64,000 nt of DNA, taken from contig JAFRKV010000048.1 of NCBI GenBank assembly GCA_017431515.1, forward strand, positions 51,928 to 115,927, given 5' to 3'. The notes beneath the pieces are model-generated. The model searched no databases and was not told where the DNA came from. It was given only the letters and a program-made list of their open reading frames with translations. The DNA comes from Lachnospiraceae bacterium (GTDB taxonomy: Bacteria > Bacillota > Clostridia > Lachnospirales > Lachnospiraceae). The position numbers and the translations under genes are program-made. This document shows positions 15,477 through 62,474 of the stretch, in pieces. How positions within the stretch are numbered: the stretch's first letter is position 1; the number at the start of each line of letters is the position of its first letter.

Positions 15477-16877
15477 CTATGCCGCTTCGCGGCATGAACC
15501 TGCGGATCCTTTGGATCCGGCAGAACAAGGCATGTCCACAATGCCTCTATCCCATTGGGTCACCTTTGGGAATACTTTTCTCAAGATGTTTCCTGCTCCA
15601 TTGATATCAGCATTGGTGATGGTGCCATCATAGTGCTTGTACAGCCCACGGCTGATCCTCCTGCCTGAAAAGAAGTGTCTTTCACCATCCTCTTTTCTGT
15701 ATTCAGGAATCTCATCCCCTGCAAGAAAGTCAGCTTTGGAGGTATAGCTCTCCTCTGTAAGCACGAACTTTATCCCATTTGCAGCCAGTTTATATCGAAG
15801 CATGCCGGCAAGTACCGCCATCGGTATCTGCACAAAGTTCTGGTTATTGACATGTCCGATATGGATTCCCTGCTTTTGGGATACATTATGCCCCATGACC
15901 ACCACATCCACATGGTTGCTCTTTGCATAATCCACAAGCTCCCTGCTGATCTTATGAAAGCAGTCTTTTATGCGCCGGTTGCGCCTGCCGGTCAGTTCAT
16001 CCATCCGTTTTGTCCTGTATCTGCCGTTGCAACGCCTGGCAGCTGATGAAAGACGGGCCAGTTCTTTGTTGTAATACCGGTTGATGGACTTTATGATGCC
16101 GCCTTTTATGACAAACGGCCTGTTCCCGAAGTTGTTTACAGCAGCTATGATATTCTCTGTTCCGGGATCAATCGCCATCACCCTGATGTCATCGACAGAT
16201 TCCACGGCTTGGAGTTCCTCAAGGAGTTTATCGTTGTCTTCCGGGATGATCCCTGTGTCTTTTGCCCGAAGGACAACATCTATCACAAAACGGCCGCACG
16301 CAGGTTTGATGCGTACCTCTTTCAGTGTGCCGCAAGCACCCTTGCCCAGATTCAGCCGCACCCTGGTCCCGGGGAGCTTTAAGAAGCGCTCCTCTTTGAC
16401 CACGCAGATCTGATTGGTAAGGATCGCAGTCTTAAGTCCCTTATCCTTGATATATCCGGGAAGACGGGGTCTCCCTGTAAATGCAGAAGCATTGTTCTGA
16501 TATGCTTTGATCGCGCAAAAGAAAGATCCGTAATCCCGTATCAGAAGTTTTAATGTCTGCTGGTTCGCCTGAGCAGGGAGCGCATAATACGCCTTGTCCT
16601 TTGTGACTTTGAGTATCCGGTCCAGAGCACCGTAGGACAGCCACTTATTGCCGTGGAGATACTTTGTCCCGCCAAGGATATCCATAACGAGATGGTATAC
16701 TTCCATCTGGTTGGAGTACAGCGGTTTCTTCGCGTCAAAAGAGTCGATCGCTGTTGCGAACTGACGCAGGATGAAATTGGCACGGTTATATAAGATGGCA
16801 GAATTCTGGCACATGATCCTGCAATAATCATAGAGCCGGCTGTTCTTTTTGACGTGGAACTGTCTCGTACGATACAT
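15477..16877 (-). CDS. tnpB: TnpB-like RuvC nuclease of IS605 element, lacking the zinc finger
   Basis: A 466-residue OrfB/TnpB protein. The RuvC catalytic residues are visible: Asp237 in MAIDPGTENI, Glu375/376 in VLTEESYTSKAD and Asp424 in NADINGAGNI. In ordinary TnpB a CxxC...CxxC zinc finger follows TS(K); here the segment reads TSKADFLAGDEIPEY...FSGRRISRGLY with no cysteines. Family knowledge: TnpB is an RNA-guided nuclease that cuts the donor site and helps keep the element. Whether this zinc-finger-free branch is active is not known, but the frame is uninterrupted. Confidence 0.88.
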   Translation of the reverse strand: MYRTRQFHVKKNSRLYDYCRIMCQNSAILYNRANFILRQFATAIDSFDAKKPLYSNQMEVYHLVMDILGGTKYLHGNKWLSYGALDRILKVTKDKAYYALPAQANQQTLKLLIRDYGSFFCAIKAYQNNASAFTGRPRLPGYIKDKGLKTAILTNQICVVKEERFLKLPGTRVRLNLGKGACGTLKEVRIKPACGRFVIDVVLRAKDTGIIPEDNDKLLEELQAVESVDDIRVMAIDPGTENIIAAVNNFGNRPFVIKGGIIKSINRYYNKELARLSSAARRCNGRYRTKRMDELTGRRNRRIKDCFHKISRELVDYAKSNHVDVVVMGHNVSQKQGIHIGHVNNQNFVQIPMAVLAGMLRYKLAANGIKFVLTEESYTSKADFLAGDEIPEYRKEDGERHFFSGRRISRGLYKHYDGTITNADINGAGNILRKVFPKVTQWDRGIVDMPCSAGSKGSAGSCREAA

Positions 16878-16968
16878 AGTTGCTTTTATCTGACCTCCTG
16901 CTGTATACTCACATTATAGCAGAAAAGTTGGGGAAAAGCAAACATATGTTTGTATTGGGTATATTTTT

Positions 16969-17436
16969 ATGGACAGTTATAACAGAGGATCTCATTCCGT
17001 ATACAAGCTCACCTATCATATCATTTTTGTGACCAAGTACAGGAAGAAAGTGATCACAGACGAGATCGGTGATTTCATGAAAAACCACGCAGCTTATCTA
17101 TGCGGCAGGATGGACTGCACCCTGATATCGGCTGAGACTGACGAGGATCATATGCATCTCCTGGTATCCATGCCGCCTGATGTGGCACCGGTCAGGCTGA
17201 TCAATTCCCTGAAGACCCAGCTGTCCAAAGAAGTACGAGCGACCTACGCCAGCCATGTGGAACACTATTTATGGAAAGATGCCTTCTGGAGTGCAAGCTA
17301 CTTCTGTGCGACGACCGGATCTGTATCCATGGAAACAGTCCGGTCTTATATCGAATCGCAACGGACAAGTGAACACAAACGCAAGTATACGAAGTCAGGA
17401 AAATACAAAAGGGCGATTCATCCCTCAACCGACTGA
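16969..17436 (+). CDS. tnpA: IS200/IS605 TnpA transposase (Y1 HUH)
   Basis: A 155-residue single-strand transposase. It has the HUH motif EDHMHLL with His61 and His63 and the nucleophile Tyr127 in METVRSYIESQ. The YKLTYHIIFVTKYRKKV N-terminus is typical of the family. Its stop codon lies inside the right end hairpin. It appears intact, so the element may be mobile. Confidence 0.93.
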   Translation: MDSYNRGSHSVYKLTYHIIFVTKYRKKVITDEIGDFMKNHAAYLCGRMDCTLISAETDEDHMHLLVSMPPDVAPVRLINSLKTQLSKEVRATYASHVEHYLWKDAFWSASYFCATTGSVSMETVRSYIESQRTSEHKRKYTKSGKYKRAIHPSTD

Positions 17437-23457: not shown

Positions 23458-23856
23458 ATGGTCTTCCATGATCAAAGTGAGGATATCCAGCCTTCAATCT
23501 CAAAGCTGAATCAGGAGCTTTCATATCTTCATTTGGACAATCTTTGCATACATACCGGTCCCATAATCCGCAAAGAAGAAATCTATGAGGAAATGGAAAT
23601 TGATGAACGTCGCCGTATATTCAACAAAATGGTGGCTTTAATTCGCCAAATTAACATCAAATATAAATGCTTTACTACCAAACCCAATATTTAGGAAAGT
23701 TATGCCCACAGAATATAAACTATTTCAAGCAGCAGATTTGCTGTGTACCATGGGCTTGTTCGTCTGAAGCTCGAAAACAATCTCTTCTCAAAGCACTGCT
23801 TCTTTAGCAGATGCTTTGAAAACAATTATTCAATGGGTATTACAACCCACCATTAA
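23458..23856 (+). pseudogene. decayed DUF3800 protein
   Basis: The frame from 23458 encodes VFHDQSEDIQPSISKLNQEL and later HTGPIIRKEEIYEEM with RRRIFNKMV, the central part of DUF3800 proteins. It ends in TAG at 23692. Beyond it, PTEYKLFQAADLLCTM (the family's C-terminal motif) and, after a one-base shift, LVRLKLENNL are still readable up to a TAA at 23854. The N-terminal Asp motif is missing. DUF3800 genes are often tied to mobile elements or defence. Confidence 0.6.
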
Positions 23857-24165
23857 GCATTTTCATTACGCTTTTATAATCGGATCCATATCCACCGAAC
23901 TTATATGTGTTATCCCTTGTCATGGATAAGTGGGCACGTATACCATATTGTTCATAGAGAATACTTTCCGCTTCCTCAATACCCTTTATATTCAATGGCA
24001 ATCCTAACTTGGCAAGAATTTTATGCGTCTCATATGTATTTCCGCCGCTCACGTTCTCAAGTTCTTCATCCGTTAATTCCATCCCAGCATTCGCAATCAT
24101 TTCCTTTGCCTGTTCTTTCGTTTCTGCTTTTCCACTATCTCTTTCAGCTCTTTGCTCAGTTCCAT
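23840..24165 (-). pseudogene. Nif11-like leader peptide gene 1 (frameshift in leader)
   Basis: AGAAGGAAACGGT precedes an ATG at 24165 that reads MELSKELKEIVEK. The rest of a Nif11-type leader (AETKEQAKEMIANAGMELTD, ending ELENVSGG) is in another frame because one G is missing in GTGGAAAAGCAG (about 24127-24137). The core of about 66 residues (NTYETHKILAKLGLPL... to MLNGGL) is long and free of Cys. A GTG at 24196 opens the shifted frame but would give a non-leader N-terminus. It is most likely an inactivated precursor, unless the base is an error. Confidence 0.6.
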
Positions 24166-24223
24166 ACCGTTTCCTTCTCAATTCACACTGTATCACTACC
24201 GCTTACAATCATTCCGGGAAGCA

Positions 24224-24460
24224 TTAAGCCAGTCCTGAACCCGCATTTAAATTCCCGCTCAAAGAATCATAGATATCTTCCCTATTATAATCGACGTGGA
24301 AAGCACTATGCCGCTTATGTCCGTCAGAACCTGCACCACCACTTACCTGATCCAGCTCAGCGTCGTCAAGGATCATGCCGGCTTCCTTGATCGTCTGCTT
24401 TGCTTCTTCTTTGCTTTCCGCCTTTTCTACCTTATCTTTCAGTTCTCCGGTGAGTTGCAT
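24224..24460 (-). CDS. Nif11-like leader peptide gene 2 (RiPP-type precursor)
   Basis: A 78-residue peptide. The leader MQLTGELKDKVEKAESKEEA... ends in ELDQVSGG, a double-glycine cleavage site near residue 43. The core is AGSDGHKRHSAFHVDYNRED followed by a Ser/Gly/Asn-rich tail. GGAGGAAC is placed for the ATG at 24460. Family knowledge: such leaders direct modification and/or export with cleavage after GG by C39-peptidase ABC exporters. No such genes are nearby. The core has no Cys. Confidence 0.75.
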   Translation of the reverse strand: MQLTGELKDKVEKAESKEEAKQTIKEAGMILDDAELDQVSGGAGSDGHKRHSAFHVDYNREDIYDSLSGNLNAGSGLA

Positions 24461-24537
24461 ATACTGTTCCTCCATATTTTTGACAGTTCTGGTGCTTTGC
24501 AAAGTCCTCCGGATTAGTACCGTCCATTTACACTATT

Positions 24538-25104
24538 TCAATCCCACGCCCGCAGCGTGACCGCTACTCTTTTCCCATCCAGCTCCAGCACCGTACCATT
24601 CGCAGGTCCGATGCCCATCATATCGTTCACCGGATTCGCAAGCAGCTGCTCCGCTGTCATCTCATCCAGCATCAGAAAATCCTCGTCCCAGAAGAGCGTG
24701 GAATCATAGTTCCGCAAGTCTTCGTATTCTGCCACCGTCTCTGAGTCGAACGCCTCGATAAGTTCTGCCCGCTCCTTCTCCAGAAATCGCGCTGATGCCA
24801 AGTGCAGACATGGCTCATCTGTGTCGTCCGTATCGTCCGTATCGATAGCGATCTGGATCAGCGAATACATTAAGTACTCACCCAGAAGTTCCGGCGTAAA
24901 TGCCTTCTCGTGCTGTAAGAGTTTCCTCAGCGAATCAAATTCATACCTCGCCTGTTCGAGACCGACGTACTCCGGGAACAGACCTGCTTCTTCGCCGTCA
25001 GCCATAGAACCGTCCTTGTTGGCGTGACAGTCCAGCAGCGCGATGATGCGTTCCGACATTAATCGTTGGAGTGTGTTACTCTCTATGTTTGGTAATCTTA
25101 ACAA
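24538..25104 (-). CDS. unidentified acidic protein between leader-peptide genes
   Basis: A 188-residue protein starting at TTG with GGGAGGA upstream. It is acidic and helical at first (RLMSERIIALLDCHANKDGS), has a repetitive DTDDTDDTDEP stretch near residue 95, and ends with a small beta domain (GTVLELDGKRVAVTLRAWD). No signal peptide or membrane helix is seen, and I do not recognise the family. It is transcribed in the same direction as the flanking leader peptides, so a role tied to them (immunity or processing) is possible but unproven. Confidence 0.6.
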   Translation of the reverse strand: MLRLPNIESNTLQRLMSERIIALLDCHANKDGSMADGEEAGLFPEYVGLEQARYEFDSLRKLLQHEKAFTPELLGEYLMYSLIQIAIDTDDTDDTDEPCLHLASARFLEKERAELIEAFDSETVAEYEDLRNYDSTLFWDEDFLMLDEMTAEQLLANPVNDMMGIGPANGTVLELDGKRVAVTLRAWD

Positions 25105-25290
25105 GTGTTTTGTCCTCCCTTCCGTCCGATCCCCTACGCCACGATGGCATAGTTCGTTGGACGCTAGCTTATATAACCGTACATGGGAGGTTTAATCAAG
25201 TTGATTTATTGTACGAATTGTAGGAAGGTTGTTTGGTAGGTTTATGGTTCCCCATCATCATCACCGAACGCCTCCATTTCCGCGTCTTTT

Positions 25291-25524
25291 CTAATCAATA
25301 AAAAAACTATGTCCTATACATGGGCTATCATTTATTGGGGTGATTGGGGTGCTAACACTAATAGACAGACTCCCAGTAAATATTGGGCAATCCCCTTGGC
25401 CGCCAGCCACCTGATCCAGCTCTGTATCCGACAGTTCCACGCCTGCATCCTTGAGGATCTTCTTTGCTTCTTCGGCGCTCTTTGCGTTTTCTACCTTTTC
25501 CTTCAGTTCTCCTGTGAGCTGCAT
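25291..25524 (-). CDS. Nif11-like leader peptide gene 3, Ser/Thr/Cys-rich core
   Basis: A 77-residue peptide. The leader MQLTGELKEKVENAKS... ends in ELDQVAGG. The core (QGDCPIFTGSLSISVSTPIT plus about 15 residues) has two Cys and about ten Ser/Thr, the composition expected of a lanthipeptide-like product. AAGGAGGAAAC precedes the ATG. It is the best candidate in the window for a modified peptide. No LanM/LanB-type enzyme is in the window. Confidence 0.78.
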   Translation of the reverse strand: MQLTGELKEKVENAKSAEEAKKILKDAGVELSDTELDQVAGGQGDCPIFTGSLSISVSTPITPINDSPCIGHSFFID

Positions 25525-25602
25525 TTCGTTTCCTCCTTCGTAAACCCCTTAATGTGAAGCGCCCTTGCTGGGCACATGGCTCTCGTTAGTTTTGGCTCTC
25601 TT

Positions 25603-25870
25603 TCAACCAAACCAAAGCTTTTCTTCGGGCCCATTACACACTATGCGAGGTGGACCGTCCTTCTGACGTTGTATTTGAGCAACGCCCTTGATTATTTTGT
25701 AACGGTTGGCTTCCTGCGCGGATTCTGAACTGATCCACGATTGTCCACCAGAAACCATATTCATTTCTTCATCGGTAAGTTCCATTCCGGCATTAGCGAT
25801 GAGTTCTTTAGCCTGTTCTTTGTTTTCTGCTTTTTTCAACGTTTTCTTTTAATTTGCCTGTAAGTTTCAT
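25603..25870 (-). pseudogene. Nif11-like leader peptide gene 4 (frameshift in leader)
   Basis: AGGAGGAGATACCCT precedes an ATG at 25870 reading MKLTGKLKENVEK. An extra A in the run GAAAAAAGC (25831-25836) then throws the frame; the conserved AENKEQAKELIANAGMELTD and MNMVSGG continue one frame over to a stop at 25603. The core is about 46 residues with one Cys. A TTG inside the run opens the shifted frame but lacks the first dozen leader residues. The position of the shift matches that in gene 1. Confidence 0.65.
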
Positions 25871-25900
25871 AGGGTATCTCCTCCTGAGCAGATTTCATTG

Positions 25901-26143
25901 TCAGAAATAAACGCCGCAATACTTGCACACCTTTCTTCCGTCTATTCCCTCCTCAAATACATGATCGCTGCCGCCCGGGTTCCATTGGCATTTTGTGTTA
26001 TCATAATCGTCTCCGCTGCCGCCTGAAACCATTTCCAGTTCGTCATCATGAAGGAGCGTTCCTGACATTTTGATGGCGTTCCTTGCGTCTGTCTTTCTCT
26101 GTGGGTTCTCCGGTTTTTCTTTCGGTTTACTTGTAAGTTTCAT
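25901..26143 (-). CDS. Nif11-like leader peptide gene 5, zinc-ribbon-like core
   Basis: An 80-residue peptide. The leader is degenerate (MKLTSKPKEKPENPQRKTDA) but ends ELEMVSGG. The core SGDDYDNTKCQWNPGG... then HVFEEG and KVCKYCGVYF holds three Cys and a His in a C-x(9)-H-x(9)-C-x2-C order that could bind zinc. It is the first gene of a minus-strand run with genes 4 and 3, probably read from the TATAAT at 26181-26186. Confidence 0.72.
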   Translation of the reverse strand: MKLTSKPKEKPENPQRKTDARNAIKMSGTLLHDDELEMVSGGSGDDYDNTKCQWNPGGSDHVFEEGIDGRKVCKYCGVYF

Positions 26144-26171
26144 AGGGCATTACCTCTTGCAGATTTGATAA

Positions 26172-26290
26172 TTCTACCTTATTATACGATGAAATTGTCG
26201 ATGTGGCAGTTCTTTTTTTGTGTCTGCATAAAAAGAAATACAGAATAAAGGACGGCGAAAAAAGACCCATTTCATGATATAATGTCCTCT
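26172..26290. repeat. duplicated divergent promoter block, copy 1
   Basis: Bases 26172-26234 and about 26259-26290 are identical to 29722-29813. The block carries TATAAT on the minus strand (26186-26181, towards leader gene 5) and the extended -10 TGATATAAT on the plus strand (TATAAT at 26278-26283, towards preA). Copy 1 has an extra segment of about 26 bases between AAAAAG runs. Confidence 0.75.
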
Positions 26291-26374
26291 ATAAAGAAGC
26301 GTATCGAAAATCTCGATGTCATCTGCCAGAACTTTCATGACGGGACGGCAATCCCGATAAAGAGGTAACAAACT

Positions 26375-27910
26375 ATGGGAAATAATGCATATGGTCTTCA
26401 AACAATCATAAAACGATCAGATATGATCTCCTGCGCACTGTGCAAGGATGCGCCCTGCACAGCCGCATGCCTGAGTATGGATCCGGCCGGATTGCTGCGC
26501 AGTATCTGGTTTGAAAATGAAAAGACGGCAGCGGCAAGGATCCCGGAAGAAAGCCCCTGCAGGGACTGCCCGGCGCCATGCGAGAAAGCCTGCGCCCGTC
26601 CGGGTCAGGTTCCGGTGAAAAAGCTGATGGAAAGGCTCCATGACGAGGTAAAGCCTGCGCTGGAAGTGGCGTATCCGGATGATGAGGACAGATTGAAAAC
26701 AGATCTTTGCGGAATCCCGCTGGAGAATCCGTTTTTGCTTTCGTCCTCTGTGGTGGCAAGCACTTATGATATGTGTGCCAGAGCTTTTGAGGCAGGGTGG
26801 GCCGGCGTGGCCTTCAAAACAGTCTGCACGCTGGATATTCATGAAGCGTCCCCTCGTTTTGCGGCTCTCACAGGAGACAATGGAAATATCATTGGTTTTA
26901 AGAATATCGAACAGCTTTCCGACCACAGTGTGGCTGAGAATATGAGCATCTTCCGGCGCCTGAAAGAAAACTATCCCACGAAGTTCATTCTGGCCTCCAT
27001 CATGGGACAAAACGAAGAAGAATGGGAAGAGCTGGCGAGGATCTGCGGGGAGAACGGAGCAGATGCAGTAGAACTGAATTTTTCCTGTCCCAATATGATG
27101 GAAGGGGGGCTTGGCTCTGACATCGGGCAGGTGCCGGAGTTGGTGGAGAGATTTACCGCGGCGGCAAGGAGAGGAACGAAAATCCCGATCCTTGCAAAAC
27201 TTACACCGAATGTGGCGCAGATGAGTCCTGCTGCAGAAGCCGCGAAGCGGGGCGGGGCAGACGGGATCGCTGCGATCAATACCATCAAGAGTATCATCGG
27301 GGTGAATCCCCATACCTATATCACAGCTCCGGCGGTTCATGGAATGTCCGCGGTCGGCGGATACAGTGGCAAGGCGGTCAAGCCCATTGCGCTCCGCTTT
27401 ATTGGAGAAATGGGAAAAAATCCGCAGCTCCATGACATGCATATCAGCGCCATGGGAGGGATCGAAAACTGGATCGACGCACTGGAATTCATCCTTCTTG
27501 GCGCGGGCAGTGTGCAGGTGACGACAGCAGTGATGCAGTATGGCTACAGGATCATTGATGATCTGAAGACCGGGCTGAATGATTATCTTGCAGAAAAGGG
27601 ACTCCAACATGTGAAGGATGTCAGAGGATTGGCACTCGATACTGTCAGTGATACCACGGATGTGATCGAGCGTGATACCGTGATCTTTCCCAAATTCCAG
27701 AGAGAGAAATGTATCGGCTGCGGCAGGTGTGAGATATCCTGTGCGGATGGAGGTCATCAGGCAATTCGATTAAATGAGAACAGGCAGCCCGTTTTTGACG
27801 GGAAGAAATGTGTGGGATGCCATCTCTGTGTTCTTGTATGTCCGCAGGAAGCAATCGCATCATCAAGGAAACGCATCGTGGTGCAAAGAAAGCAAAAGCC
27901 GGTAAACTGA
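26375..27910 (+). CDS. preA: PreA-like dihydropyrimidine dehydrogenase / dihydroorotate dehydrogenase-family protein with Fe-S ends
   Basis: A 511-residue flavoprotein. An N-terminal Cys cluster (CALCKDAPCTAACLSMDP and CRDCPAPCEKAC) resembles the Fe-S domain of glutamate-synthase-like subunits. The TIM barrel (about 110-430) has NPFLLSSSVV, ELNFSCPNM with the catalytic Cys region, and AMGGIENW. Two C-terminal 4Fe-4S motifs (CIGCGRCEISC and CVGCHLCVLVC) complete it. It probably reduces uracil/thymine or a related pyrimidine with NAD(P)H, normally with PreT; no PreT is adjacent. The N-terminal Cys domain fused to PreA could replace part of PreT. Confidence 0.85.
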   Translation: MGNNAYGLQTIIKRSDMISCALCKDAPCTAACLSMDPAGLLRSIWFENEKTAAARIPEESPCRDCPAPCEKACARPGQVPVKKLMERLHDEVKPALEVAYPDDEDRLKTDLCGIPLENPFLLSSSVVASTYDMCARAFEAGWAGVAFKTVCTLDIHEASPRFAALTGDNGNIIGFKNIEQLSDHSVAENMSIFRRLKENYPTKFILASIMGQNEEEWEELARICGENGADAVELNFSCPNMMEGGLGSDIGQVPELVERFTAAARRGTKIPILAKLTPNVAQMSPAAEAAKRGGADGIAAINTIKSIIGVNPHTYITAPAVHGMSAVGGYSGKAVKPIALRFIGEMGKNPQLHDMHISAMGGIENWIDALEFILLGAGSVQVTTAVMQYGYRIIDDLKTGLNDYLAEKGLQHVKDVRGLALDTVSDTTDVIERDTVIFPKFQREKCIGCGRCEISCADGGHQAIRLNENRQPVFDGKKCVGCHLCVLVCPQEAIASSRKRIVVQRKQKPVN

Positions 27911-27987
27911 TTTTGCGATCAAACACGCACCCGACTATTGATTTAATCGCAAAACCATGTTAGATTTACATCGGAGGAAGATGACAA

Positions 27988-29244
27988 ATGTACATAAAAC
28001 GAGACATAGAAAACGTGATTCTTGATGCTGCGGCTTCGTTTCAGGTTATTACTGTTTACGGAAGCAGACAGGTGGGCAAGACCACGACAGCGGAAATTCT
28101 GTTTGGGGGAGAATTTGAGTTCGTTACGCTGGATGATTCCGATGAATTTATCTTGGCGCAGACAAACCCCAAGGGATTTCTTGAGTCGCATCCCTGGCCG
28201 CTTGTGATCGACGAGGTTCAAAAGGCGGTCGGTCTTCTTAATGAGATCAAGATAATAGTCGATGAGCAAAGAAGGGCATGGATGAGAAACGATGAACCAC
28301 GAAGACTTATGTATGTTCTGACAGGCTCCAATCAGTTTGAACTACAGGAAGGGATAGCTGAATCACTCGCAGGCAGAACAGCGATAATAAACATGGCGGG
28401 ATTGACTCAGGTAGAAAAAAGAAACAAAAGAGGATCAGTTTTTGAAGTAGATTTCGAAAAATCGATACAAAAGCAAAGGGACAACTCAGGCTATTACCAA
28501 AACAACAACGAGATCTTTGCGGAGATTTTTCAGGGCGGTATGCCGGATGTATGCACGGGAGAATCCGAAAGGGATCTGTATTACAAGTCGTATATAGACA
28601 CATATATAGAAAAAGATGTCAGGAAACTAATCAGTGCATCCAGTGAAATGCAATTCCGAAGGTTCATTTCGCTGATCGCTCTAAGAACGGCTCAGGAACT
28701 GACATATAGTGAAATATCCAACTCTTTAGGCATAAACGTCGATACATGTAAACGCTGGATCTCGATCCTGCAAACATCCGGGATAATCTATCTACTGCAG
28801 CCATATATGGCGAATGCATCCAAGAGGATAATCAAAGCTCCCAAGTTTTATTTTATGGATACCGGACTATGTGCCTATCTTTGTAAATGGCCTACCGCAC
28901 AGATGCTTAAGGACTGCGCGATGAACGGGGCTTTTTTTGAGACTTACGTTGTGAGCGAAATAATCAAAAGTTTTTATAATGCAGGTATTGATCCCGGACA
29001 GTATCTGTATTATTACCGGGATATAGACAAAAAAGAGGTTGATATACTGCTTGTCAAAGAAGGAAACCTGTATCCGGTTGAAATTAAGAAGAGCGCTAAT
29101 CCCAGCAAACCAACCAAGAACTTTCATGTATTGGAAAAATACAATATGCCGATAATGCGTGGGATGATAATTGATAATGCAGAAAAAGTACACGTACTAA
29201 ACGATAAAGCATTTATCTTCCCGGTTTCTTTACTGGGCTATTGA
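27988..29244 (+). CDS. AAA ATPase with DUF4143 domain
   Basis: A 418-residue protein. It has Walker A GSRQVGKTT near residue 25 and Walker B LVIDEVQK, then sensor VLTGSNQF. A helix-turn-helix-like segment (YSEISNSLGINVDTCKRWIS) lies in the middle. The C-terminal DUF4143 part has EVDILLVKEGNLYPVEIKKS, a nuclease-like fold. This is a widespread accessory family of uncertain function, often multi-copy and linked to mobile regions. GGAGGAAG precedes the ATG. Base composition is more AT-rich than the flanking housekeeping genes. Confidence 0.9.
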   Translation: MYIKRDIENVILDAAASFQVITVYGSRQVGKTTTAEILFGGEFEFVTLDDSDEFILAQTNPKGFLESHPWPLVIDEVQKAVGLLNEIKIIVDEQRRAWMRNDEPRRLMYVLTGSNQFELQEGIAESLAGRTAIINMAGLTQVEKRNKRGSVFEVDFEKSIQKQRDNSGYYQNNNEIFAEIFQGGMPDVCTGESERDLYYKSYIDTYIEKDVRKLISASSEMQFRRFISLIALRTAQELTYSEISNSLGINVDTCKRWISILQTSGIIYLLQPYMANASKRIIKAPKFYFMDTGLCAYLCKWPTAQMLKDCAMNGAFFETYVVSEIIKSFYNAGIDPGQYLYYYRDIDKKEVDILLVKEGNLYPVEIKKSANPSKPTKNFHVLEKYNMPIMRGMIIDNAEKVHVLNDKAFIFPVSLLGY

Positions 29245-29384
29245 AGAGAGAAGGCTTCATTTCAGCACGGAAATACAATAGAAAAAAGGATCCATGAACT
29301 TGAAAATCTCTAAAGGCTGAAGCATCCAAGAATAAGCTCTGTAAGCAAAGCGGGCTGGCTATATCTTGCTATATCACACGCTCA

Positions 29385-29603
29385 CTATCGCCAAGACGAA
29401 TTGAATTCAAGCTTATATTCGACGCCAACGTCAATACCCTCTTCGTCAAGTTCTGTAAGTGCGCTATTCACACCTCCCGCCACCTGATCCAGATCATCGT
29501 CACTGAGGATCATGCCGGCTTTTGAGATGAGTTCCTTTTCCTTTTCCTGTTCTTTGTTTTCTGCTTTTTCGTCTTTCTCTTTCAGTTTTCCTGTTAGTTT
29601 CAT
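29385..29603 (-). CDS. Nif11-like leader peptide gene 6
   Basis: A 72-residue peptide. The leader MKLTGKLKEKDEKAENKEQE..., slightly longer than the others, ends DLDQVAGG. The core VNSALTELDEEGIDVGVEYK then LEFNSSWR is acidic and free of Cys. AGGTGAAG precedes the ATG. It lies downstream of the truncated leader 7, and both would be read from the minus-strand TATAAT of promoter-block copy 2. Confidence 0.72.
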   Translation of the reverse strand: MKLTGKLKEKDEKAENKEQEKEKELISKAGMILSDDDLDQVAGGVNSALTELDEEGIDVGVEYKLEFNSSWR

Positions 29604-29630
29604 GATTACTTCACCTTTGAAAGCAATTAA

Positions 29631-29693
29631 CTATCGCTCTGTCAGTTTCTTTTTTTCTTCCACGTTATCTTTCAGTTTCCCTGTAAGTTTCAT
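29631..29693 (-). pseudogene. truncated Nif11-like leader peptide gene 7
   Basis: GGAGGTGTAGC precedes an ATG reading MKLTGKLKDNVEEKKKLTER and then TAG: only the first half of a leader, with no GG site or core. It sits between the promoter block and gene 6, so it may now act only as a short upstream frame. Confidence 0.55.
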
Positions 29694-29721: not shown

Positions 29722-29813
29722 TTCTACCTTATTATACGATGAAATTGTCGATGTGGCAGTTCTTTTTTTGTGTCTGCATAAAAAAAGACCCATTTCATGA
29801 TATAATGTCCTCT
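29722..29813. repeat. duplicated divergent promoter block, copy 2
   Basis: An exact copy of the 26172-26290 block except that about 26 internal bases are absent. TATAAT points left (29736-29731) to leader genes 7/6 and TGATATAAT points right (TATAAT at 29801-29806) to the M13 peptidase. Identity over about 92 bases in non-coding DNA implies recent duplication or conversion. Confidence 0.75.
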
Positions 29814-29869
29814 AAGGAGATCAGGACTCTGACACCAACTTCGTTGGCGTGAAGTATGGAGGTAACCGT

Positions 29870-51424: not shown

Positions 51425-51510
51425 GTTCGTTTCCTGCCGCAGGATTGCCACATCGGAAAGCTGTTCGTATCAACAGATGAACGGTTGTTTTAGAATGGAG
51501 GAAAGCAGAC

Positions 51511-54500
51511 ATGGATACGCAGTTTTATTTATTTGACGAACAGAAGCAGAAGACAGAACAGGTTTCGGCAGAGGAATACCGGCGGATTCATGATGTGCGT
51601 TTCGCGAATGCGGAAAATGCGGCTGAGCAAAAGAAAGCGAATCTGGACTATTTCACCGGGATCCGCACCAAGACCAATGCGATCCTGCCGCAGTATATGC
51701 AGGTGGAAAGGGAGGCCGGCGAAACCTACGCGGACAGGCTGACGGATGAGGAAAGAAAGAAACAGATCAAGACCTCCGGTACAGAGATCCATGCCAAGCA
51801 TGAAAATGCCGCAAGGATCACAAAGGCGCAGCAGAAACTGAAGGAAGATGCGGAGAAACGGTGTAAAGCCACCGCAAAGGTTCTGCGCGTTTCCAAGGAG
51901 GACTTAAGCGCCATCGGTTCTTTCTTTGGGAGCAGCAAGAGCGAAAATCAGCGGCTGGCGAGATCCTGGATGAACAGGGGCAACCGTCCGAAAGAGATGT
52001 TCACTACGATCTTCAATGCATTTCTGCAAAATTCCTTCGATGATCTGGATCTTTCCTCGGACAGAAAGCTTTCCCAAAATGCAGAACGGATGGAGCGGAT
52101 CAGCGCCCAGTATGATATGGTGCTCCATATGCTTACGGAGTATCGGGAGCTTTATGATGTGTTGCCGGAAAAATCAAAAAATCTGGTGGACAAAAAGCTT
52201 GGGGAGGTCAACGGGATCATCAATTATTACCGGCTCATGAGGGCTGTGATCACGGACTCGTATTACATGAGTCACGAGAACCGTGAGCTTGCCGTGAAAA
52301 AATCCGATCAGGACAGCGCGCAGCAAAAACGTCTCGTCAGGAAGTTGTGGCTTGCCAAAGGCGGGCTCAAGGCGCTGACGGATTATGGCGTGAAGGCTCT
52401 GGACGAGCGTCTTGATGCGCTGTGCGGCAGGATGTCCACCGGCGTGGTCACGGAAGAACAGTTGAATGTTCAGAAAGAGCTTGCCGAGAGGGAGGACGAG
52501 ATCGAGAAGAGAGGGCTGTCTGCGCATCTGGACAACATGAGCGCGAAGAAGCAACTGGACGGGATCCGTGATAACGGGAGCAACAAGAGCATTCTTTTCC
52601 GCGCCAGACATAGCGTGAAAGAGCTGCATCTCCCGGAGCGGGTGGAAGACGCAGTCGGATCTGTTTCCAGGATCCTCGATCAGCTGGCTTTTCTGGAGGC
52701 TTTCTCGAAGGAAAAGATCAACAGCAGAAACTCCTACCTGATGGAGCACAATTACCGTGACATTGCGGTCATGGAACAGGTGGAATCCTTGAGCGGGCCA
52801 TTGAAGGAGATAAAAGAGGCAGTTCTTTCCATCGTCCGGGTGTCTGACAAGGGGCTGATGAGGTCCGGCAGGGTATCAGGCGCTGCCTTTCAGGAAGCAC
52901 AGAGGAAATACGCGGAGGCATGTGAAAATTACCGTGAAGGGATGAGGCAGGTTGGTCTGCTCAATACCGGCTACCTGCCGCCTGCTCCGGATCCCGGAAT
53001 GACAGACCTGCTGGCATCGGCGGATAAGGTCAGGAAAACGTTCAAAGACCCTAAGGAGAAAGCGACGGAACAGCAGAAGGAGGTCACGCGCGAGAAGATA
53101 AGGAACATGACACTGAAGCTGGCCGGCGCGCGCTATTCAGACGCCGCCATCTATGAAAACGCCAAAGAGATCATGGAACTCATGAAGGAAAAATACCGGG
53201 CGTTCGGTACTTCCGTTGAGTTCTCCGAATTTAACCACATCTGCTTTCTCGCGGAATATCTGTATGCAACCAAACGCCGGATGGATCTTGCAGAGGCGAA
53301 AAAACAGCAGGATCTGCCGGACGAGCTACGGAAAACGCTGGATGCGGAAGAGAAGGCGCTGGAGGTCTACGTACAGGATAAGAAAGGGAAGCCTCATCTG
53401 TCGCTCGGGACTGCCAGAGGCATTCAGAACAATCTGCGGATGAAGGCAGAAAAAGACAGTCATGATCTGGAAGATCTGAAGGCAACGGCAGCTCATTATC
53501 TCTTCCAGGAGGAATGGGCAAAGAACTCCAGAAGGGAAAAGACGACTTTTCTGGAAGGTGCAAGGAAATCGGTTTTCTCCGGGCTCACCAGATTTCTGGG
53601 ATGGATCTTCAGCAAGCCGAAGACCACGGAGCATGGCAGGGTGCTCTATGAGGACTCCAAGCAGAAGCTGAATCAGCTTCCCCAGGGGATCGAGACCTTC
53701 GGGAATGAGGGCGCCGATCATCAGATACGACACGGAGACGGGACATACGCACCCCCTGTGGAGCTGAATAAGTACTTCAAGGATCCCATGAAGCTTACCC
53801 TCGCAACAGGTTGCAACGACATCCTCTCGTCCATGGATGCAAACACAGCATATCCGCAGTGTATCAAGGATGCGGTGGATGCGCTTTCTTCCTATAGCAG
53901 AGTGCGTGGGATCGTGACCCGGGAAACCTTCGAAATGGAACAGGCTTTTCTGGACAAGTTCCGTGTCAGCATGGATGAGATGCTTTCCGGAGAAGGCAGC
54001 GTCTTCAATGAGCATCCTGTGCTCTCACAAAAGCTTTTGAAGACATACAAGGATATGCTCTCCCTTTCCAACGGCAATCTCCGCAAACAGATGACAAAGG
54101 CGGAGTTTGAGGCTGCAAAGGAGCAGAAAGCCATCTATGTCATGGATACCTATGTGGGCGACATGAAGGAAAGCAATATGCGCGATCTCCCCCTGTTTCC
54201 TCATGCGCCGAATCTGAACGACGTCAAGCAGGGAACGGTAGGAGACTGCTATCTGGCGGCGGCGACGCAGACTGTTCTGGCAGAGAATCCGGATGCCATC
54301 CGGGATATGTTCTGTGACCTCGGAAACGGCGAGGTGCTGGTGCGTCTCTATGCGGCCTACGATGAGGTGTCGAATCCGGACGGTTCAAAAGAATTCCGCA
54401 GGGTGGATGATCAGGCTCAGCTGGATAAGCTGGCTCTGCGCCCCGTCTATGTGAAGGTCAAAAAGCAGTATACCACCGGTGAAGCGCATTGCTCGGACTG

Positions 54501-55719
54501 CATGTGGATGCAGCTGTTGGAGGTGGCTTATGCGGCGGCCGGTTTTTCGCATGGGGAAGCGGAAGTCAAAGAAGATGGGGAACTGGTGGATCTGAACAAA
54601 GAACTGACGGATGGTCGTACTTATCCGGCTCTGCTTCATCTGACCGGAAAGAAGTATGAGTCTATAGTGCCATCGAAGATGACGACCCATACCGTGGAGC
54701 AGTCAGAAATCGAGAAGAGGCAATCCGGGCTCTATCTGCAGAAGCATAGCCTGCTGAGCGGGGTGGATGGCTATCTGCGCGATCATATTTACCAGCAGCT
54801 GCAGATTGCAAAGAAGCATGCGCTGAAAAACGGCGCCAACATCGATGCGGACTGGGAAAAAAATGCGATCAGGAGCGCAGTCAGGAAGGGGCTTGAGAGT
54901 TCCTACAAATCGAGGACGGACTGGAAAAAAGATCTGGAAACGCTGGTCGAACAGGGGAGATTGACGACAGAACAAAAGGAGACACTGACAAAGACCATAG
55001 AGAAGCGCTATGATACCAGCGATAAACGGGTGGAAAAAATCACAAAGAAGATTCTGCAGAATCTGGTCGATCCCGGGAATGTGCTGCAAAAGCAGTCGAA
55101 GTCCTATCGTCCCATTCCGGTGATCGCAAGCGAGATCCATCGGTTTGCGACGGAGGGACCGAAGGAGGGAGAGGTACCGGACTCTGTGTTTAAGGACGTT
55201 GAGAAAATGATCAACAAGAAAACCGAAATGTCGGCCGGTGCACCACTGAAAGCTCCCACAGAAGAAGAATCTGCCGCAATCAAATATTCCGTGAAGACTT
55301 TTATGACCCTCAATCCGGATAACCGTTATACACAGAAGGAGCTTGGGGTTCTGACGCTGATCAGGAGACAGGTTGTAAAGGGCAAGGCGGTATGTCTGGA
55401 AGAAATGGGGCATTGCCGTACGGCGCTGGATGTCAAATTCCATAACGGGAAATGGTTTATTCTGATCCGGGATCCCTTTAATGTGTACCGCAATGAATAC
55501 ACGGCGCAGGGGAATGCGCTGAAAACGAAGTCCTATGGTCTTGGCAGTACGCTGACTGAGCACTTTCACGTAAGGACTCTCTCTCCGGATCTGAAACAGG
55601 GGTTCCTCGGCACCTGCTGGTATGAACTGAAAGACATTGTAAAGGAAATACGGATCATGCAATTCACACCCGGAAAGAAACGCAGTTTGGGAGACGATTT
55701 TGGTAACGAGGAGGATTGA
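51511..55719 (+). CDS. giant calpain-like (C2-type) cysteine protease protein
   Basis: A 1402-residue protein without signal peptide or clear membrane helix. The first 870 residues are helical and highly charged with no domain I recognise. The papain-fold core is recognisable: KQGTVGDCYLAAATQ with Gln907 exactly six before Cys913, as in calpains; EEMGHCRTALDV with His1301; and LIRDPFNVY with Asp1321 where calpain has Asn. The Cys-His distance of 388 is far larger than in calpain, so about 230 residues are inserted. GGAGGAAAGC precedes the ATG. Substrate and role are unknown; cytoplasmic location or unconventional delivery is possible. Confidence 0.75.
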   Translation: MDTQFYLFDEQKQKTEQVSAEEYRRIHDVRFANAENAAEQKKANLDYFTGIRTKTNAILPQYMQVEREAGETYADRLTDEERKKQIKTSGTEIHAKHENAARITKAQQKLKEDAEKRCKATAKVLRVSKEDLSAIGSFFGSSKSENQRLARSWMNRGNRPKEMFTTIFNAFLQNSFDDLDLSSDRKLSQNAERMERISAQYDMVLHMLTEYRELYDVLPEKSKNLVDKKLGEVNGIINYYRLMRAVITDSYYMSHENRELAVKKSDQDSAQQKRLVRKLWLAKGGLKALTDYGVKALDERLDALCGRMSTGVVTEEQLNVQKELAEREDEIEKRGLSAHLDNMSAKKQLDGIRDNGSNKSILFRARHSVKELHLPERVEDAVGSVSRILDQLAFLEAFSKEKINSRNSYLMEHNYRDIAVMEQVESLSGPLKEIKEAVLSIVRVSDKGLMRSGRVSGAAFQEAQRKYAEACENYREGMRQVGLLNTGYLPPAPDPGMTDLLASADKVRKTFKDPKEKATEQQKEVTREKIRNMTLKLAGARYSDAAIYENAKEIMELMKEKYRAFGTSVEFSEFNHICFLAEYLYATKRRMDLAEAKKQQDLPDELRKTLDAEEKALEVYVQDKKGKPHLSLGTARGIQNNLRMKAEKDSHDLEDLKATAAHYLFQEEWAKNSRREKTTFLEGARKSVFSGLTRFLGWIFSKPKTTEHGRVLYEDSKQKLNQLPQGIETFGNEGADHQIRHGDGTYAPPVELNKYFKDPMKLTLATGCNDILSSMDANTAYPQCIKDAVDALSSYSRVRGIVTRETFEMEQAFLDKFRVSMDEMLSGEGSVFNEHPVLSQKLLKTYKDMLSLSNGNLRKQMTKAEFEAAKEQKAIYVMDTYVGDMKESNMRDLPLFPHAPNLNDVKQGTVGDCYLAAATQTVLAENPDAIRDMFCDLGNGEVLVRLYAAYDEVSNPDGSKEFRRVDDQAQLDKLALRPVYVKVKKQYTTGEAHCSDCMWMQLLEVAYAAAGFSHGEAEVKEDGELVDLNKELTDGRTYPALLHLTGKKYESIVPSKMTTHTVEQSEIEKRQSGLYLQKHSLLSGVDGYLRDHIYQQLQIAKKHALKNGANIDADWEKNAIRSAVRKGLESSYKSRTDWKKDLETLVEQGRLTTEQKETLTKTIEKRYDTSDKRVEKITKKILQNLVDPGNVLQKQSKSYRPIPVIASEIHRFATEGPKEGEVPDSVFKDVEKMINKKTEMSAGAPLKAPTEEESAAIKYSVKTFMTLNPDNRYTQKELGVLTLIRRQVVKGKAVCLEEMGHCRTALDVKFHNGKWFILIRDPFNVYRNEYTAQGNALKTKSYGLGSTLTEHFHVRTLSPDLKQGFLGTCWYELKDIVKEIRIMQFTPGKKRSLGDDFGNEED

Positions 55720-59991: not shown

Positions 59992-60137
59992 ACGAGAAAT
60001 ATGTCTGCCAGAAGCAGTATTTCATCGTATAAAGAGATAGGGTACAAAAAACTGCGAAAGGGTCTGCCCTACCGGCGCGATCTACGCCATCTGAGGGAGA
60101 TCCGTTCATCCATCATCACAACACGAAAGGGACGGTT

Positions 60138-60353
60138 ATGAAACTCACAGGAAAGTTGAAAGAAAACGTAGAAAAAGCCCAAAATAAGGAGCAGGCAAAA
60201 GAACTGATTGCGCATGCAGGCATGGAACTGACCGACGAAGAGATGGATATGGTAAGCGGGGGCTTTGATATAGGGAGTAAAATGACCACCATTTACCGCC
60301 ATGCTCCTGGGACAAAAGGCAAGGATCATCAAAGCGATCAAAGCGATAACTGA
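60138..60353 (+). CDS. Nif11-like leader peptide gene 8
   Basis: A 71-residue peptide. The leader MKLTGKLKENVEKAQNKEQA... ends MDMVSGG, nearly identical to that of gene 4 at 25.8 kb. The core FDIGSKMTTIYRHAPGTKGK plus DHQSDQSDN is polar without Cys. It lies some 35 kb from the main cluster on the opposite strand. Confidence 0.75.
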   Translation: MKLTGKLKENVEKAQNKEQAKELIAHAGMELTDEEMDMVSGGFDIGSKMTTIYRHAPGTKGKDHQSDQSDN

Positions 60354-61991: not shown

Positions 61992-62186
61992 CAAAAAGTG
62001 TTCGGGAAAGCCCCGGCTGGGACAAAAGGCTCCTTTGGAATCGAGCATTAGTTCGTTCCTCCGGGCGTCCAGTAACTGTTCCGCGTAAACGTAAAATGAA
62101 AAAGATGGCTGGAGGGTGACAGGACAATCACAGCATCGTATTATATAATAGAACCATAAACCCGACATTCGTAAGGAGGACTTCAA

Positions 62187-62369
62187 ATGAAATTTACAGA
62201 TGAACTGAAAAGCAGGCTGGAAAAAGCGCAAACCAAAGAAGAGGCAAAAGCAGTTTTTGAAGAGGCGGGATTTGTCTTAAGCGACGATGAGATCGAAGCG
62301 ATATCAAGCGGCAAAGACGGATCCGTCGATTGGAAGAAAGCAGGTAAGGATACAAATTGGATTTGGTGA
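62187..62369 (+). CDS. Nif11-like leader peptide gene 10, short core
   Basis: A 60-residue peptide after AAGGAGGACTTCAA. The leader MKFTDELKSRLEKAQTKEEA... ends EIEAISSG, so the first Gly of the usual GG is Ser. The core is only about 18 residues: KDGSVDWKKAGKDTNWIW. TATAAT at 62144-62149 is a plausible -10 box. Confidence 0.65.
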   Translation: MKFTDELKSRLEKAQTKEEAKAVFEEAGFVLSDDEIEAISSGKDGSVDWKKAGKDTNWIW

Positions 62370-62474
62370 GGGACTGTCATTCAGGACTACGCCTGCCTCC
62401 TCAAGGATCTTCTTGGCTTGTTCTCTGTTTTCTGCTTCTTCAACGTTTTCTTTCAGTTTTCCTGTCAGTTTCAT
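62304..62474 (-). pseudogene. truncated, inverted Nif11-like leader gene 11
   Basis: AGGAGGCGCCCT precedes an ATG at 62474 reading MKLTGKLKENVEEAENREQA and AKKILEEAGVVLND. The frame then runs antisense into gene 10, without a GG site or true core. An inversion or deletion near 62378 removed the rest. It is convergent with gene 10. Confidence 0.6.

Follow-up and report, generated by a model that had tools for sequence, protein, structure and literature searches.

We analysed a stretch of 64,000 nucleotides of a Lachnospiraceae bacterium (assembly GCA_017431515.1, contig JAFRKV010000048.1, positions 51,928 to 115,927; hereafter the window), in which several genes at 23840-29693, and others further on, open with one conserved leader of about 42 residues and continue into unrelated sequences, the cores. 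These genes are probably dispersed precursors of small exported peptides, with a conserved leader, export of the NHLM/LahT type and an unmodified product. The leader would address the product to a C39-peptidase ATP-binding cassette (ABC) exporter of the NHLM/LahT kind that is encoded elsewhere, and the dispersed genes would undergo birth, duplication and decay, so that broken copies are common. Many of the scattered copies carry the element TGCCA-N15-TCGTATAA and would probably be co-activated, perhaps by an extracytoplasmic function (ECF) sigma factor encoded next to one of the exporters.

Inspection of 23840-29693 revealed seven minus-strand ATG codons that open the leader, at 29693, 29603, 26143, 25870, 25524, 24460 and 24165, and the sequences past its Gly-Gly (GG) end are unrelated and vary in length, charge and composition. 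An earlier sequence-only reading had described seven leader genes here; the seven copies and their unrelated cores are borne out, but only four of them are intact, with two others disrupted in frame and the last reduced to a relic of 20 codons. Its description of the leader, about 42 residues with the C-terminal end V(S/A)GG, holds for most copies but not for one intact leader of 44 residues, and that of 26143 has diverged. The intact copies are all open reading frames and are themselves rows of the leader profile described below: 29385-29603 (44-residue leader ending in QVAGG, acidic core of 28 residues; profile E 8e-22), 25901-26143 (the diverged leader, MVSGG, with a 38-residue core that contains CxxC; 4e-24), 25291-25524 (QVAGG, Ser/Thr-rich core of 35 residues; 2e-22) and 24224-24460 (QVSGG, core of 36 residues; 3e-24). 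The copy at 25870 loses its reading frame past 'MKLTGKLKENVEK' and that at 24165 past 'MELSKELKEIVEK'; both changes lie at the same point, directly past V-E-K, and have opposite senses, with an extra base in one and a missing base in the other relative to the intact copies. The first part of each runs to a stop (25808-25870 and 24097-24165), and an open reading frame in another frame supplies the second part, MVSGG with a 46-residue core at 25603-25839 and NVSGG with a 66-residue core at 23840-24133, respectively. Decay is the likeliest reading of these frame changes, for which slippage or an assembly error may be alternatives. The relic at 29631-29693 reaches a stop after 20 codons and matches the profile weakly (E 0.043, one TAG).

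Three further copies were located by the profile beyond this region: an intact plus-strand gene at 60138-60353 (MVSGG, core of 29 residues; E 4e-23), which is absent from the profile rows, a plus-strand leader at 62187-62369 with an SSG end and an 18-residue core, and a broken minus-strand copy at 62376-62474 that has lost its GG end. The region 23840-29693 is not a single operon, as the copies 29693 and 26143 each have their own promoter-like block, with unrelated genes in between. The two blocks, 26172-26291 and 29722-29814, are identical over 63 and 34 bases ahead of diverged coding parts, and look as if promoter cassettes had recently been copied. A pattern scan of the window placed the shared promoter within them, at 29732-29758 (minus strand; 63 bases there also precede 26143) and 26182-26208 (minus strand), as well as at 60006-60032 (plus strand). 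A variant, TGACA...CGTAT, lies at 62117-62141 (plus strand).

The leader profile was built from six window pieces, and it recovers copies that are not among its members, at 60138 in the window and on contig C62, with E 4e-23 to 1e-22, as well as 19 copies in a second species; chance is thereby excluded as the origin of the leader family. The genome of the bacterium holds 20 leader places at E<=0.001, spread over ten contigs, and by reading 13 of these retain the whole leader, a variant at C51:38065 uses a different start and six are broken, the start half or the GG end being absent or the frame changed. The 29693 relic is a seventh broken copy outside the 20, and this mix of whole and broken copies is one of birth and decay. 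Across 61 genomes, this one and 60 relatives, the family is present in four, with 20 places here, 19 and 4 in two of the three other genomes of the genus, one in a further genome of the family Lachnospiraceae and none in the remaining 57. A scan of GTDB contigs added 44 public loci, of which 33 belong by their record names to Lachnospiraceae, with Butyrivibrio and Acetatifactor among them, and the other 11 carry another or no family name; many of the records refer to samples from rumen, ruminants or horse gut. The frames are therefore neither absent from relatives nor unconserved in them. Leader genes are also carried by strains AD3010 and AC3007, whose records are not labelled as metagenome-assembled genomes and which we take to be cultured isolates. 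The accessible part of PMC13289728 contains none of the terms AD3010, AC3007 and Nif11. A related leader at C18:14299 is followed by a core of NGM repeats.

In order to compare leaders with cores, we gathered 102 full-length leader genes, setting aside 24 partial matches; removal of duplicates left 99, and one core below 7 residues was dropped, giving 98 peptides of leader and core. Mean leader identity is 59% (n=89 leaders of exactly 42 residues), and the median ratio of nonsynonymous to synonymous substitution rates (dN/dS) is approximately 0.14 over 755 pairs, a rough value given non-independent pairs and synonymous sites near saturation (mean proportion of synonymous differences, pS, 0.62), with identical leaders and pairs with a nonsynonymous proportion (pN) >=0.25 or with dS undefined or <=0.05 left out. 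Core pairs, on the other hand, exceed the 99.9% level of shuffled sequences in only 0.4% of 4753 comparisons. The cores span 7-186 residues (median 21; 76/98 no longer than 40) and 63/98 are free of Cys. At least one CxxC pair occurs in 13/98 (shuffle mean 4.5, maximum 10) and two pairs in 2/98 (shuffle mean 0.46, maximum 4); a minority of cores with Cys pairs is thus real, and the zinc ribbon as a general core theme was rejected, two CxxC pairs being confined to those 2/98. A Pfam search of nine family cores returned one C2H2 zinc finger over the cut-off, two zinc-ribbon-like matches below it, one weak unrelated match and five without a match, and the core of one short-leader peptide in the same search was ferredoxin-like. 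This core (L068:4893-5150, contig C43), with two 4Fe-4S motifs, follows immediately after a short GG leader under the shared promoter.

The precursors had been taken to be of the Nif11 type, and this assignment fails: the best window piece scores 17.9 bits against the TIGR03798 cut-off of 32.3 and 16.6 bits against the PF07862 cut-off of 23.8. A search of the genome with TIGR03798 gave no match, the control matching in 1/14 genomes and nowhere over the cut-off. By cut-off, the leader sequences thus define a family of their own outside Nif11. The leaders end in ELxDxELxxVxGG, where cleavage by a C39 peptidase is predicted.

The searches of the genome, which is 82% complete, with PF03412, PF05147 and TIGR04085 place no C39 exporter, LanC-like protein or SPASM radical-SAM protein inside the window, in agreement with the earlier view that these are not local. 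PF03412 identifies three C39 proteins genome-wide, on contigs C40, C41 and C51. Those on C41 and C51 each have a partner ABC protein and are of the NHLM type, with 896.4 and 894.7 bits for NHLM ABC1 (TIGR03796, cut-off 853.3) and 741.5 and 711.7 bits for NHLM ABC2 (TIGR03797, cut-off 709.4); the C40 protein fails TIGR03796 (517.6 bits vs 853.3). The C39 domain of the C41 protein matches LahT (PDB 6MPZ) with E 6.5e-61 over 132 residues, the next solved relative being at 1e-14, and Cys27, His101 and Asp117 of LahT align with identical residues in it. The accessible part of the LahT report places its recognition positions in the leader at -4, -7 and -12 (PMC6363468). In the present leaders position -4 is V, A or I, position -7 is L, M, V or I and position -12 is L, hydrophobic in 98/98, and 98/98 end in GG or SG, results that are favoured by the selection of these leaders as full-length profile matches.

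Leader genes and exporters also meet on public contigs, where a leader gene adjoins a homologue of our ABC1 protein in 3/44 loci, as judged by similarity to that protein and not by the NCBIfam model. In L135 the leader gene lies divergent from ABC1 (64% identical) and ABC2; in L142 the leader is followed by a short protein resembling the one ahead of the C51 exporter and by ABC1 (66%), with an ECF homologue approximately 4.5 kb before; L139 has two leaders, a protein that reads as HlyD-like and ABC1 (41%). In the bacterium's own genome, the profile and PF03412 searches found no leader-family place near the exporters. NHLM ABC1 exceeds its cut-off in 8 of the 61 genomes, and all four leader genomes are among them (Fisher p 1.3e-4).

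The element TGCCA-N15-TCGTATAA stands upstream of scattered leader copies in several genera. With the pattern TGYCAN{11,17}TCGTATAA we found 23 matches in the bacterium's genome vs none for the reversed pattern and 19 vs 1 in the related genome G001; the corresponding values were 0 vs 1 in G002, 1 vs 1 in G003 and 0 vs 1 in G026. By reading, 15 of the 23 precede genes with long or short GG leaders (some broken), three precede large proteins and five are unclear or due to chance, and 10 of the 19 in G001 precede GG-leader genes. Over 37 genomes, matches to TGCCAN{14,16}CGTATAA exceeded the control in the two leader-rich genomes (22 vs 3 and 16 vs 3); the remaining 35 gave 26 vs 55 in total. Among the 97 regions upstream of leader genes, themselves found by the protein profile, 31 contain TG[ACT]CA-N14-16-CGTA (expected 0.2, maximum 3 in 300 simulations). 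In 27 of these 31 sites, 30-65 bases separate the end of the element from the start codon, and all 28 sites with a spacer of 15 bases have a T after CGTA, although the pattern does not demand it. In 40 public loci (315 kb; 4/44 were left out as belonging to the genome already counted as G001) there are 12 strict matches, each in sense and no more than 350 bases ahead of a leader-family gene, vs one for the reversed control. For L144 and L159 the frame listed closest to the match is a different short one, and L168 has a broken leader. The scattered copies with a common promoter are thus probably switched on together.

CGTA near the -10 position recalls ECF promoters, but a sigma-A promoter, with a TTGCCA-like -35 and a 17-base spacer, is another possible reading of the element. 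An ECF sigma gene lies directly before the C41 exporter, and in G001 a 76% relative of it likewise precedes an exporter directly. Five of the 61 genomes, this one included, have homologues at E<=1e-20, all five with NHLM exporters, and 12/18 further leader genomes have some ECF match at E<=1e-15. This sigma factor beside one exporter is the candidate driver of the shared promoter, a link that is suggestive only.

Several observations weigh against the proposed system. The HlyD-like neighbour of one exporter (L061:9144-9623), the sole candidate tested, matched no NCBIfam model (TIGR03794), and four of the eight NHLM genomes lack such a leader. The excess of CxxC pairs in the cores is not predicted by a purely random-core view. 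The promoter is absent from 66/97 upstream regions, a count that includes later genes of arrays, and it is not enriched in the leader-poor genomes G003 (1 vs 1) and G026 (0 vs 0); moreover, the pattern was derived from the bacterium's genome and G001, so that the public loci are its only independent test. As for the ECF factor, an exporter homologue lies within approximately 1.5 kb flanks in only 4/15 ECF homologues (own included), and the co-occurrence of promoter and ECF gene over the 18 further leader genomes (8/2/2/6, with G066 and G073, whose sole ECF match is 31-32% identical, counted as without ECF) gave p 0.054. We also considered that the ECF gene itself is under the shared promoter and rejected this, as no promoter copy stands ahead of the ECF-exporter operon. 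Finally, the peptides are predicted products, known here from genes alone, and a trans-acting enzyme of ribosomally synthesized and post-translationally modified peptides (RiPPs) may exist in this genome.

The role of the exported peptides would most likely be communication or competition with neighbours. Within the export reading, it is a serious possibility, though not the favoured one, that they are signals (pheromones) and not weapons, the short cores serving as a private code for neighbours or self. Consistent with this, 35/98 cores have at most 16 residues, the median net charge is 0 and the cores are mostly hydrophilic; three loci, each from a different genome, share an identical 7-residue core, APRPTLD, and the core SSA...APKFH recurs in two. 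However, a few cores resemble metal-binding domains, which would be odd for signals, and no receptor or immunity gene was recognised, though none was systematically sought.

Modification in trans by a promiscuous enzyme encoded at another site of the genome, in the fashion of the prochlorosins, would give the same architecture of leader and core, and the accessible part of PMC10783134 describes a solitary promiscuous enzyme as the modifier of prochlorosins, which provides a precedent. The sequence-only reading had drawn this analogy and had left two alternatives, shared enzymes elsewhere or an unmodified secreted family; both are sound, and the data favour an unmodified exported family. The analogy itself, one LanM for all, did not hold, as PF05147 finds no LanC-like protein in the genome; the search did not extend to YcaO, LanB and other RiPP enzymes. 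The TIGR04085 search did find two radical-SAM proteins with a SPASM domain, but one is a SCIFF maturase (775 bits, cut-off 425) and the other stays under each of the 25 cut-offs shown; the search was confined to enzymes with a SPASM domain. Because there is no LanC-like protein and 63/98 cores are Cys-free, and with 35/98 cores so short, an unmodified exported peptide is likely and is the simplest reading of these sequences, and modification in trans appears unlikely.

It is about equally unlikely that the copies are selfish, decaying duplicates, in which spreading cassettes of leader and promoter fuse to any downstream DNA and most cores are functionless. The six broken places among 20, the 29693 relic, the identical promoter blocks ahead of differing coding regions and the near-total lack of alike core pairs would all fit such a process. 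Nevertheless, the leader is constrained (dN/dS ∼0.14), a few cores recur across genomes, and two short-leader peptides under the shared promoter have, by eye, similar cores in both species. A cytoplasmic family of small proteins with a coincidental GG can be set aside as very improbable, even with export as a prediction, given the GG or SG end and the C39 recognition residues in 98/98 leaders (which the full-length selection favours) and the leader genes that adjoin exporter homologues in 3/44 public loci.

The leader genes are not the only ones under the promoter. Genes without a GG leader that have it in both species include those for proteins of 1878, 113, 2520 and 962 residues. Over 1629 residues, the 1878-residue protein (C61:42264; L115:6265-11898) and its G001 counterpart are 68% identical, the 113- and 2520-residue proteins are 81% and 52% identical to theirs, and in the 962-residue protein the first ∼250 residues alone align, at 31%. 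The 2520- and 962-residue proteins are encoded on contig C15 (L110:9475-17392 and L111:5543-8431). One very large protein carries an ABC1-type kinase-like domain; the full 1878-residue frame matched no Pfam family, and hydropathy gave no evident signal or membrane segment in the very large proteins (for the 1878-residue one, the first 579 residues and the 1621-residue counterpart were scanned). In the window, a near-match to the promoter with a CGTATCA end (51446-51472, plus strand) precedes an open reading frame for a 1402-residue protein with a calpain-like (C2) peptidase domain (51511-55719, plus strand; PF00648 24.0 bits, cut-off 23.8), a possible regulon member. The large proteins are tied to the peptides by the promoter alone. 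We propose only tentatively, and with more doubt than belief, a genome-wide regulon on one ECF-type promoter, in which hypervariable unmodified peptides leaving through LahT-like exporters and proteins of 962-2520 residues, perhaps the calpain-like one too, would form a social or competitive programme of rumen Lachnospiraceae.

Contig C15 also carries a contractile-injection-like cluster (L118 and L109, C15:79000-110000), with baseplate J, Tail_P2_I and AAA ATPase by Pfam and a sheath-like protein by reading. A shared promoter over this cluster was considered and rejected: the sole strict match, C15:109272, falls within the frame of the AAA ATPase, and there is none in the 38 kb before it, the region of the sheath-like and first baseplate genes. 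Elsewhere in the window, at 15477-17436, two divergent genes match PHROGs transposases, in what we take to be an IS200/IS605-like arrangement.

The closest known system is LahA1-9/LahT of Lachnospiraceae C6A11 (PMC6363468), which shares the bacterial family, conserved GG leaders, diverse cores and a LahT-type C39 exporter; as far as the accessible part of that report goes, the lahA genes are clustered with lahT, their leaders are called Nif11-type and no shared promoter is mentioned, whereas the present genes are dispersed and their leaders fall below the Nif11 cut-offs. The Nif11-derived and NHLP precursors with NHLM exporters (Haft et al. 2010, PMC2887384) likewise have a GG leader, paralogous expansion and the TIGR03796/TIGR03797 exporters, and precursors without identified modification enzymes are noted there; the present family is below their model cut-offs, and the word 'sigma' is absent from the accessible part of that paper. 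The prochlorosins (ProcA/ProcM) also combine a conserved leader with variable cores; unlike them, we find no LanC-like protein and mostly Cys-free cores. In class II (unmodified) bacteriocins and ComC-type pheromones the GG leader is removed by a C39 exporter without modification; here, in contrast, the leader is longer, the cores are near-neutral and very diverse and no immunity or receptor gene was recognised.

Literature searches, within the accessible parts of the sources, returned no description of the present leader family or promoter. The genes would work like the LahA/NHLM GG-peptides, a known kind, and what is new, as far as these searches show, is their dispersal, their promoter and the diversity of their cores in these gut bacteria. 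Since mining for RiPPs and bacteriocins usually looks beside enzymes and exporters, dispersed precursors are easily missed; combining the leader profile with the promoter motif locates them anywhere in a genome. With the rumen strains AD3010 and AC3007 as carriers, the role of unmodified GG-peptides in the gut community becomes testable.

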